A program made the position numbers and the translations under genes. The notes under the pieces were generated by a model, which saw nothing but the letters and a program-made list of their open reading frames with translations, was not told the DNA's origin and made no database searches. A stretch of 24,506 nucleotides of DNA. Origin: a virus. Location of the stretch: positions 1-24,506 of IMG/VR virus record IMGVR_UViG_3300043409_000809; one strand, given 5' to 3'. The stretch's first letter is position 1. The number at the start of each line of letters is the position of its first letter. Positions 19,959 through 24,026 of the stretch are shown here, one piece after another.

Positions 19959-20215
19959 GCCGTCACGCATTGCCGCTCGTCGAATCCATCAAGGTGGTCC
20001 ATCTCTCAGATGGAAGAACCATCCGAGTGCGGCGTGATCGAACCGAAGAGAATCTAAAAGCCAACTACGGAGATGGTGATATCCACCTCACTTGCGTGTC
20101 CCAAGCTCATGATCCCATCGAGATGGTCAAGACCTTGGCCCGCATGGAGAGCGTTCGATCCGTAGAACTGGTTGATTCCAAAGGCAACGGACTCGTAGTC
20201 CACAAACAAAAATGA
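19955..20215 (+). CDS. Small unrecognised protein, 86 aa
   Basis: Coupled by ATGA to the HTH gene and to the next gene. The product is beta-rich (IKVVHLSDGRTIRVRRDRTE) with GDIHLTCVSQAHDPIEMVKT, then ESVRSVELVDSKGNGLVVH. The strand-helix-strand order with conserved-looking glycines suggests a small alpha/beta fold. No cysteine or active-site motif stands out, and no family is recognised. It is not membrane associated. Confidence 0.55.
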   Translation: MSRHALPLVESIKVVHLSDGRTIRVRRDRTEENLKANYGDGDIHLTCVSQAHDPIEMVKTLARMESVRSVELVDSKGNGLVVHKQK

Positions 20216-20457
20216 AACAGTCCTCAACACACGACCTCGTCAACGCGCTCAATATCCTCTCAGCCGAACTAGATACCCAAGATGGAATCCCCAATGCGCT
20301 CTGTGCAGAAGCATCCACTCGTCTCCTTGAGCTGGTCCAGCTCACGAGCGACCTTACAGCACACATCATCTCCAACCCTGTGCATCATGGTCGATGCAAC
20401 GCCAAGACCAAGGGTTCCTACTGCAACTGTATCCTGGCTCGCCTCATCACCCCATGA
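20212..20457 (+). CDS. Small unrecognised protein, 81 aa
   Basis: ATG overlaps the previous stop (ATGA); a variant of the leader repeat (GTCCACAAACAAA, one extra base) lies directly before it. Residues 5-50 are helical (HDLVNALNILSAELDTQDG, ALCAEASTRLLELVQLTSDL). The end holds HHGRCNAKTKGSYCNCILAR, with three Cys and a His pair that could form a small metal site. Function unknown. Stop overlaps the next start. Confidence 0.55.
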   Translation: MKQSSTHDLVNALNILSAELDTQDGIPNALCAEASTRLLELVQLTSDLTAHIISNPVHHGRCNAKTKGSYCNCILARLITP

Positions 20458-20992: not shown

Positions 20993-22780
20993 ATGACACC
21001 GCACCAACGTGCGGCCCTTTGGCTTTCCAAGGTGCCGCCAGCCGTCTCCGGTCAGTCCGGACACTCAACTACCTACACCGCTGCCGTCGGCCTCGTACAC
21101 GGCTTCCAGCTATCCGAGGCGGACTCTCTAGCCCTGCTCTCTAGCTGGAATCAATCCTGCCAACCACCTTGGTCCGATCGCGAACTCATCCACAAACTCC
21201 GCGAGGCCGCTTCCAAGTCTCACTCCAAGCCAGCCGGCCATCTCCTTCAGTCAGGGGTCTCCCCCTCAACCGCTCCATTCGATATCACCAAGGTATCCTT
21301 CAAGAGGTTGTCACCGGCCACACCGCCCGATCCTCAAGCCAGCGAGTTCAAGCGGTTCCTTCAAGCCGCCTTCGCGCCCACCGAGGTGGTCTGTATCTGT
21401 GATGCGGTCGAAGAGGGTAGGCCAGTTAGTGCTGGATCATTCATCCCCATCGAGGAATGGATCAACCGCTTCGATGATCCGGCATCCCGCATCCTGTCAC
21501 CGGAACGCGAGGGGATCTTCGTTCGCATCAACCCCTTCCGGCCCAACCTCTACAGCGGCTCCGACAACGATGTCAGCGCGTATCGCCATGTCCTGGTGGA
21601 GTTCGACGACAAGCCCAAGGCCGAACAGGAGAAGCTCTTCCGCGATTCGGGCCTACCCATCACCGTCCTCATCGACTCTGGCGGCAAGTCCATCCATGCC
21701 TGGGTCCGCGTAGATGCGCCCAACCGCAAGGAGTGGGACATCCGCCGGGATATCATCTACTCGTCGATCCCCGGCATCGATGCCAAGAACAAGAACCCCT
21801 CGCGCTACAGCCGGCTCCCGGGCGCATGGCGTAGCCCTACGTCCCAGCAAAAGTTGCTGGCCACTAACCTCGGCTCCGCTTCATGGGAAGACTACCTCAC
21901 CTCCCGCGAGACCGATGATGATCAATCCACGGTGGTCTCGATCAAGGATCTCATATCCTTCGATTCATCCAATGATCCGGACAACCTGATCGGCCAACGC
22001 TGGCTTACCCGCGGCTCCTCCATGATCGTCAGCGGTGGCACCGGTATCGGGAAGTCCAGCCTGATGATGCAGATCGTCATCCAATGGGCACTCGGCAAGG
22101 ATTTCTTCGGCATCGCCCCGGTGCGCCCATTGAAGATCGGAGTCATCCAAGCCGAGAACGACAAGGGCGATCTCGCCGAAGCATTCCAGGGCGTAGGGTT
22201 CGGACTCAACCTTAGCGGGGGCGACATGAAGATGCTCCAGCAACAGCTCGAATTCCGGACCGAGGCCGTCCGTACCGGTGATCAGTTCCTCGCCTACGCC
22301 CGCCGGTTCATTCACAAATCCAAGCTCGATGTCATCGTGGCCGATCCTTTGTTCTCCTACTTCGGCGGTGACCTTTCGGACCAGGGCGAGGTCAGCGTGT
22401 TCCTTCGCAACAAGCTCCAGCCCATCCTTCAGGAAACCAAGGTCGCTTGGATCTGGATGCACCATATCTCCAAAGCCCAGCGCAAGGACGGTGAACCCAT
22501 GACCACAATGGAACTCGCTCACGCCGGATTCGGATCCTCGGAGCTTGCCAACTGGGCGCGTGAGATAGCGGTTCTGGCAGAGGTAGGCCAGTTCAAGCCT
22601 AGACGCTTCCAGCTAGCCTTCTGCAAGCGTGGAGGGCGGCTTCCCAAGCCCATCATCAACCTCCAGCACGGGACCGATCGAATCAAGTGGGAGGAATACA
22701 ACCCGCTGGTCATCACCGGTGCCCAGCTCAAGGAGAAGAAACCGTTCAACAACAAGGCCAAGAGGAAAGATAGTATATGA
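20993..22780 (+). CDS. Primase-helicase fusion (PriCT, AEP-like primase, RepA-like ATPase)
   Basis: 595 aa. Residues 24-76 (HSTTYTAAVGLVHGFQLSEA, then WNQSCQPPWSDRELIHKLRE) match the PriCT primase-associated helical domain. Residues of about 195-310 look like an archaeo-eukaryotic primase: HVLVEFDDK with E203 and D205, IDSGGKSIHAWVRVDA with H235, and SRYSRLPGAWR. Residues of about 335-560 form a RecA-like ATPase of the RepA/AAA_25 type: Walker A GGTGIGKS (348-355, K354), VIQAEND, Walker B IVADP (D451) and WIWMHHISKAQ. One protein would thus prime and unwind DNA at phage forks. PriCT usually follows the primase domain, but here it precedes it. The next gene overlaps by ATGA. Confidence 0.75.
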   Translation: MTPHQRAALWLSKVPPAVSGQSGHSTTYTAAVGLVHGFQLSEADSLALLSSWNQSCQPPWSDRELIHKLREAASKSHSKPAGHLLQSGVSPSTAPFDITKVSFKRLSPATPPDPQASEFKRFLQAAFAPTEVVCICDAVEEGRPVSAGSFIPIEEWINRFDDPASRILSPEREGIFVRINPFRPNLYSGSDNDVSAYRHVLVEFDDKPKAEQEKLFRDSGLPITVLIDSGGKSIHAWVRVDAPNRKEWDIRRDIIYSSIPGIDAKNKNPSRYSRLPGAWRSPTSQQKLLATNLGSASWEDYLTSRETDDDQSTVVSIKDLISFDSSNDPDNLIGQRWLTRGSSMIVSGGTGIGKSSLMMQIVIQWALGKDFFGIAPVRPLKIGVIQAENDKGDLAEAFQGVGFGLNLSGGDMKMLQQQLEFRTEAVRTGDQFLAYARRFIHKSKLDVIVADPLFSYFGGDLSDQGEVSVFLRNKLQPILQETKVAWIWMHHISKAQRKDGEPMTTMELAHAGFGSSELANWAREIAVLAEVGQFKPRRFQLAFCKRGGRLPKPIINLQHGTDRIKWEEYNPLVITGAQLKEKKPFNNKAKRKDSI

Positions 22781-23100
22781 AATACCGCGATCAGTTCGGG
22801 AAGATGCCGCCGCTTAAGCATGATAAGATCATTGCTTCCAGCGAGGTGGTTATGCACATAGCCAGTGGGGTATCATGCGATATCGAGCGGGCCAATAAGT
22901 TGTTCAATGAGCTTCGCAAGCGTCGGATCATCGTCTTCGACAAGCTCGACCGGACATGGCACGGCATCGACAACCGCTCCATCCGCCACACCGATTCGGA
23001 CCGTATCCGGATGCTGGAGATCCGGCTGGAGACCCTCGAAAACAAGCACAAGAAGCTCCTCGCCGCCTACCGCGCCCACATCGACCTAATTCCCAACTAG
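22777..23100 (+). CDS. Small unrecognised helical protein, 107 aa
   Basis: ATG 22777 overlaps the primase-helicase stop (ATGA), so it may be co-translated as a partner. Residues 15-60 (HDKIIASSEVVMHIASGVSC, then IERANKLFNELRKRRIIVFD) suggest a winged-helix-like element. The C-terminal 35 residues are strongly coiled-coil (DRIRMLEIRLETLENKHKKL). A role in loading or regulating the helicase is plausible but unproven. It is the last + strand gene before the non-coding junction. Confidence 0.6.
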   Translation: MKYRDQFGKMPPLKHDKIIASSEVVMHIASGVSCDIERANKLFNELRKRRIIVFDKLDRTWHGIDNRSIRHTDSDRIRMLEIRLETLENKHKKLLAAYRAHIDLIPN

Positions 23101-23136: not shown

Positions 23137-23187
23137 CCCCCCCTTTCTAAGAATTTACCCCCCCCTAGGAACGCCCCCACTAACCCC
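23137..23187 (-). other. Candidate G-quadruplex tract
   Basis: On the - strand this stretch has four G runs (4, 5, 8 and 7), separated by 5, 8 and 14 bases; a fifth G5 run lies at 23211-23215. Loops are longer than in a classic quadruplex, so folding is possible but unproven. Confidence 0.3.
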
Positions 23188-23393: not shown

Positions 23394-24026
23394 CTAGGAG
23401 AGGGTTTGATGGTTGGATGGAGTGTAGGGAGCGGAACCCCATTGAGCGGCCATGGCGCGGGCGATGCCGGGATAGGTCTTGGAACGCTCCTTCCAGCGGG
23501 TTGGACTGGGACCGAGTTTGTTCTGGCCACTGGGGGTTTGATTGGCCCACCTACCGGATGGCGATAGCGGCAGGATGTCGGTGGGAACCAGCGGTGGAAG
23601 GTTCTTGAGCCAGAGACAGGTGCGCTTGCTCGCGTCATCACCGAACTGATACGGCTGGATTATTTGAGTGGGTTTGCATATACGAGTGTTGATAGCACCT
23701 ATTGGATTCTCTATTGCTATACGGGGGGGGGTACTATTCATTAACAGATGGACAAACTCCAGTGCTTCCTCGGTCAGCTTAGGGTCGCGAAGCCCCCGCG
23801 TAGTCCAGTGCATGCCGCTCGCGCATAGGTAGGTGCATGGCGGAAACGCGATCAGCATGTCCCAGTGGTGGATCGGCTTGAGGAGATCCCTCACATCACC
23901 GCGGTAATGCTGGCCCACTGTGTCTGACTCCTCGAAATCGCAGCTCCACGCATCCCAGCCTCGGGCCGCGAACTCATCGCGAACCCGGCCACTGTACTCA
24001 CAGGCCACAAGGATGCGGGGTTTCAT
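23394..24026 (-). CDS. Phage DNA cytosine methyltransferase-like protein
   Basis: 210 aa from the ATG at 24026, which has GGAGGAGG 4 bases upstream; this beats the longer frame starting at 24065. Motifs: ILVACEYSGRVRDEFAARGW (residues 5-24) as the cofactor-binding region, FPPCTYLCASG with the PPC catalytic loop (62-64, C64), IENP (105-108) in place of the usual ENV, and YQFGDDASKRTCLWLKNLPP. This group of short phage enzymes resembles C5-cytosine methyltransferases without a large target-recognition domain. It may shield phage DNA from host restriction. A C9 tract (23723-23731) in the gene, just before IENP, could make expression phase-variable. Its start overlaps the upstream gene's stop (ATGA). 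Confidence 0.7.
   Translation of the reverse strand: MKPRILVACEYSGRVRDEFAARGWDAWSCDFEESDTVGQHYRGDVRDLLKPIHHWDMLIAFPPCTYLCASGMHWTTRGLRDPKLTEEALEFVHLLMNSTPPRIAIENPIGAINTRICKPTQIIQPYQFGDDASKRTCLWLKNLPPLVPTDILPLSPSGRWANQTPSGQNKLGPSPTRWKERSKTYPGIARAMAAQWGSAPYTPSNHQTLS

Follow-up and report, generated by a model that had tools for sequence, protein, structure and literature searches.

In the parts consulted here, two sources attribute the phase variation of phage receptor-binding proteins to hypermutable polyG or SSR tracts (PMC11868660, a review of 2025; PMC10579305, 2023). Both cite Sorensen et al. 2021 (Cell Rep 35:109214) on Campylobacter phages, and the review also treats phase-variable bacterial methyltransferases. 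The locus described here shares with the Campylobacter phage tracts a G repeat within a phage gene, and a change of its length would switch expression as it does there. However, the switched product of the Campylobacter phages is a receptor-binding protein with a plaque phenotype, as far as the consulted parts of PMC11868660 and PMC10579305 go, whereas the gene at hand encodes a DNA methyltransferase of an uncultured phage known from sequence alone. Phasevarions provide the second likeness: the expression of a DNA methyltransferase or RM gene is switched by a repeat tract within it (PMC11868660 and, for type IIG, PMC4889913). In contrast to their bacterial type I, III or IIG RM enzymes, the enzyme considered here is short, phage-borne and of the C5 type. 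It belongs to the same family as the phage DNA methyltransferases of phrog_757, but the C9 tract is not general among the IMG/VR relatives examined. Within titles and opening abstracts of the literature we found no homopolymer-switched phage methyltransferase, although one may still be in print. The C9 tract gene is presented as a candidate addition to the known polyG phase variation of phages.

The C9 tract and the methyltransferase gene

The window, i.e. the whole stretch of DNA analysed, comprises 24,506 bases and is an entire virus record (G000). It also encodes RecT-like, exonuclease, helicase, Holliday-junction resolvase and primase genes; Rfam at the gathering score and a tRNA search yielded no match within it. 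The following features are relevant:

23394..24026, minus strand: phage DNA methyltransferase gene, 210 amino acids; phrog_757 (E 1.2e-63), predicted fold resembling C5-cytosine methyltransferases
23723..23731, minus strand: C9 homopolymer (G9 on the plus strand) that spans methyltransferase codons T99-R102; relatives have a length of 8, 9 or 10
23835..23837, minus strand: encodes Cys64 of FPPC, a residue shared by all 30 aligned rows
23709..23711, minus strand: encodes Glu106 of IENP, likewise shared by all 30 rows but missing from the C8 and C10 products
23394..23722, minus strand: 3' part of the gene, no longer in frame where the allele is C8 or C10

The initial annotation had described nine C residues that encode T99 to R102 ahead of the IENP motif, and this description is exact: the coding strand reads ACC CCC CCC CGT (T99-P100-P101-R102), immediately followed by I103-A-I-E106-N-P. 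The frame is intact, as had also been stated, from the ATG at 24026 to the stop at 23394. The tract is the longest homopolymer of the window and its sole run of at least nine bases, the runner-up being a C8 at 23158. G or C runs of at least nine occurred in 18% of 300 order-1 and in 3.7% of 300 order-2 Markov simulations of the window; by this measure the run length alone is unusual, but not extreme. Removal of one C in silico leads to a stop after 102 amino acids and addition of one C to a stop after 129, and both frames lack the ENP motif and all residues beyond. A long, pure coding homopolymer whose frame is broken by a change of ±1 is a mark of contingency genes and is present here.

Further C/G runs, apparently non-coding, are situated near the gene at 23137-23143 and 23158-23165 of the window, and those upstream of the gene in L082, L084, L087, L089 and L109 vary from G6 to G8 and from C7 to C9. 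Since such lengths differ among relatives, the region appears to be rich in slippage-prone runs. A regular expression, possibly too strict, for a second G8 run located behind the gene of relatives remained unmatched.

The match to phrog_757 (DNA methyltransferase) spans residues 1-207 of the protein, while Pfam and NCBIfam gave zero matches at E up to 1. At the protein level, 453 annotated phage records match, all with less than 60% identity. Compared as DNA, the final 6 kb of the window matched two records of the phage collection over 1% of the query; as a near DNA relative of this segment is absent from the collection, we term the group uncultured. Hallmarks of C5-cytosine methyltransferases are a catalytic PC motif and an ENV motif. 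In an alignment of the window protein with 29 relatives, FPPC (Cys64) and E106-N107-P108 are invariant in all 30 rows, with ENP in place of the ENV typical of the C5 motif. We take Cys64 to be the catalytic cysteine of motif IV and Glu106 to be the glutamate of motif VI.

The predicted model has a mean pLDDT of 74.5 and a pTM of 0.78. VIA-align superimposed 176-194 of its residues with Z scores of 8.7-10.2, an rmsd of 3.8-5.3 and 10-15% identity, and the 50 rows listed contain DNMT3A/3B complexes, M.HhaI, M.HaeIII and other cytosine-C5 or DNA methyltransferases. The closest structures by this comparison are thus C5 methyltransferases with a class I methyltransferase fold. In Foldseek the top match was DNMT1 with an E-value of 1.4e-3, none reached 1e-3 or better, and methyltransferases of other kinds ranked close behind. 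Sequence searches against solved structures gave nothing, or E-values of 0.086 or worse. Overall, the gene product is most likely a compact C5-type methyltransferase, as judged from the model. The tract encodes a loop ahead of the strand predicted at residues 102-107, and loss of the frame at this point takes away Glu106 plus everything downstream.

Tract lengths among relatives

A protein search of IMG/VR matched 204 relatives. Of the best 80, eight carry C9, one has an in-frame C10 (L052, the same contig as L117), and in the remaining ones the run is interrupted or shorter, as in GGCATCCCCCGT. At the homologous site, other IMG/VR relatives examined show SGIPR or a variant of it, and their C run is shorter or interrupted. 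The uniform C9 of the close clade that this search suggested is refuted by the OFF alleles found in DNA pattern scans; the protein search was misleading because the best 80 of 204 matches favour unbroken frames. To remove this bias, the scans of IMG/VR permitted other tract lengths. The first returned 11 long-tract contigs, and wider scans, one covering long and short tracts (47 contigs) and one without the upstream flank, added L117 to give 12 contigs with a run of at least 8, or 13 including the window. No match to the tract site was obtained in a scan of bacterial genomes.

Eight contigs possess C9 (L083, L006, L084, L089, L086, L088, L090 and L091), two C8 (L082 and L085) and two C10 (L087 and L117). 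The initial annotation had proposed a comparison of relatives for lengths of 8 to 10, and such lengths do occur, with the frame broken at the tract in L082, L085 and L087 and the rest of the gene intact. The C8 product terminates in STPPV and the C10 product of L087 reaches a stop near residue 130. Behind the tract, the usual frame of all three is open to its normal end and nearly identical to that of intact relatives. When contigs were collapsed at 98.5% identity, 7 of the 9 long-tract lineages were ON, and the OFF lineages were one C8 and one C10. Length polymorphism in close relatives with an otherwise intact gene, a further mark of contingency genes, is thus present at the level of consensus contigs.

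In our judgement there is an even chance that C9 is a slippage-prone site in a phage C5-type methyltransferase gene with natural ON and OFF alleles. The tract, the in-frame gene, the C8, C9 and C10 alleles in assembled contigs and the open, conserved 3' part of the OFF alleles are seen directly, and the most likely cause of the different lengths would be replication slippage at the C run. Copying slips that gain or lose one C would produce ON (C9) and OFF (C8, C10) states, similar to bacterial contingency genes. OFF products would end just short of the presumed catalytic glutamate and without the remaining fold, and for these reasons should be inactive; one more slip would restore the frame.

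In the methyltransferase relatives L112 (contig of L063) and L066-L069, residue 146 is followed by an in-frame insert of some 60 residues, at a place that might hold a target-recognition domain; the insert of L112 is cysteine-rich.

Real alleles or sequence errors

Sequencing error had been named at the outset as the simple alternative to phase variation. All phages could truly be C9 and the C8 and C10 tracts the result of PCR stutter or of low-coverage assembly. At the tract site itself a read error seems to have occurred once: L117 and L088 differ at 3 positions in 3106 bases (L117:5481-5509 versus L088:5079-5115), all just past G9, all to G in that direction and about 140 bases from the contig end of L117. 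Changes that all run to G onward from a G9 run are a typical read-error pattern. The in-frame C10 of L117 was therefore rejected as a real length variant and the contig assigned to the L088 lineage; it serves as a warning about sequence accuracy at this site.

Against a general error speaks that coding tract length agrees within the near-identical record pairs L083/L006, L082/L085 and L084/L089, so that pure assembly error is less likely, although the members of a pair may share one sample. L082 and L085 are separate records, possibly from the same sample, with 2 SNPs in 8460 bases and an identical C8. In addition, 11 of 12 homopolymers of at least 7 bases are equal in length across L083/L006, L082/L085, L084/L089 and L109/L004, the unequal one belonging to a segment of L084/L089 that is divergent and apparently non-coding, and the three broken tracts (L082, L085 and L087) all lie in contig interiors. 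On this evidence we consider consensus error to be an unlikely source of the C8 and C10 alleles. For the phase variation originally suspected, ON and OFF lengths do occur among relatives; on the other hand, near-identical contigs have equal coding tracts in every pair but L088/L117, where the difference is attributed to read error.

Frame breaks in short-tract contigs and in other genes

None of the 34 contigs with a short or interrupted tract and the same downstream site is broken (32 are readable over their full length, and 2 run off a contig end). L106 fits the pattern but is a distant homologue with 49% identity and was excluded from the interrupted-tract counts. By lineage, OFF alleles occur in 2 of 9 long-tract versus 0 of 18 interrupted lineages (Fisher P = 0.10), a contrast that is not significant and only suggestive. 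A stricter frame-break test flagged L082, L085 and L087, plus L112 with its in-frame insert in the gene.

Other genes of the 47 contigs provided 126 gene-contig comparisons, which control for general assembly quality rather than for long homopolymers as such. A query labelled 'ssb?', whose frame was wrong, does not enter any of the counts. A first check found none of the comparisons in more than one frame. By the stricter test 124 are continuous, with 113 genes covered to at least 90% in a single frame and 11 truncated where the contig stops. The two exceptions are an in-frame insert in the helicase of L090 and a frame-changing deletion in a small ORF of L092. The former, about 1 kb at L090:654-1673, is placed between ...IIVDE and the part that resumes after VHNC and looks like an intein. 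In the latter, a homologue of window 20212-20457, residues 55-70 near the end are missing and the frame changes from 1 to 3; as far as seen, the deletion is not at a long homopolymer.

Selection and history of the tract

Both OFF lineages are under strong purifying selection behind the tract. Compared with 13 relatives, L087 has 12-17 synonymous and 1-3 nonsynonymous changes in this part, and L082 has 2-9 synonymous and 0-1 nonsynonymous changes compared with 12 relatives (L087 left out). As the sequence is open and under purifying selection, the shifts of the OFF alleles should be recent, reversible or bypassed.

A bypass could consist of a ribosome shift at CCC-C or a slip of RNA polymerase, in which case C8 and C10 alleles would still yield some enzyme and tract length would hardly matter. 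CCC-C is prone to +1 ribosomal shifting. The tract includes this motif, a +1 shift would put C10 back in frame, and the persistent selection behind the tract would fit as well. However, C8 requires the opposite shift, and a recent slip accounts for the selection equally well. Recoding at CCC-C could soften the effect of C10 but not that of C8, and we regard bypass as a general explanation as very improbable. Nor do we claim an overlapping gene: an apparent drop in synonymous divergence behind the tract within the clade fails across 40 sequences, where 325 of 780 pairs are more divergent before the tract than behind.

Fourfold sites were unchanged at 3 of 3 countable positions in the tract codons (P100, P101 and R102; T99 was lost to an alignment gap in L082) versus 51 of 79 in the remainder of the gene, as counted over 8 rows. 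This conservation is not unusual, and these countable sites thus give no sign of selection on the tract itself. In a tree built without the tract columns, C8, C9, C10 and interrupted alleles are intermingled in one 15-row set (support 100/99), which points to block exchange by recombination or to repeated change. As most other relatives examined carry an interrupted or shorter run, the switch, if one exists, is limited to one small clade.

These observations also bear on the possibility that the tract is a mutational hot spot and the switch unselected. Slippage would then be real, but OFF phages would be short-lived loss-of-function mutants. The gene would be an accessory one, and the tract would have come along with an STPPR replacement spread by recombination. 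This agrees with the restriction of the long tract to a small clade and its mixture with interrupted alleles on the tree, with synonymous sites of the tract that are not specially conserved, with the length differences of apparently non-coding G/C runs in the region and with the low number of OFF lineages, only 2. Yet tract alleles endure in lineages that are about 13-41% divergent at synonymous sites of the 5' half (pairs computed), and the tract persists even though interrupted codon choice would remove the hazard. An unselected hot spot thus appears possible, though on the doubtful side. Even a neutral tract would be a reason for caution: where the methyltransferase of an assembled phage is broken, the cause may be the slip of a single base, with the gene otherwise conserved.

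If, on the other hand, slippage yields natural ON and OFF alleles, a likely consequence would be a phage population mixed for methylation of its own DNA. Such a mixture could be useful if unmethylated DNA is restricted by some hosts and methylated DNA by others. The phage would then hedge between hosts by a homopolymer contingency switch in its own methyltransferase: methylated DNA of ON particles would escape conventional restriction, and unmethylated DNA of OFF particles would escape methyl-directed restriction. We put this forward tentatively, as a rather doubtful reading. If true, it would represent a phasevarion-like switch at the level of the phage that serves counter-defence instead of receptor binding, and with such a switch in a DNA-modification gene, phages would be able to hedge against restriction inside one population.

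The surroundings of the gene differ as well. The ORF adjoining the methyltransferase gene in L083 (L083:7813-8460) seems by eye to be related to window 22777-23100 but is encoded on the opposite relative strand, a possible inversion or module swap. A G8 run is located near the start of this neighbouring ORF in L083 and L084, and at equal distance in L087 and L089.
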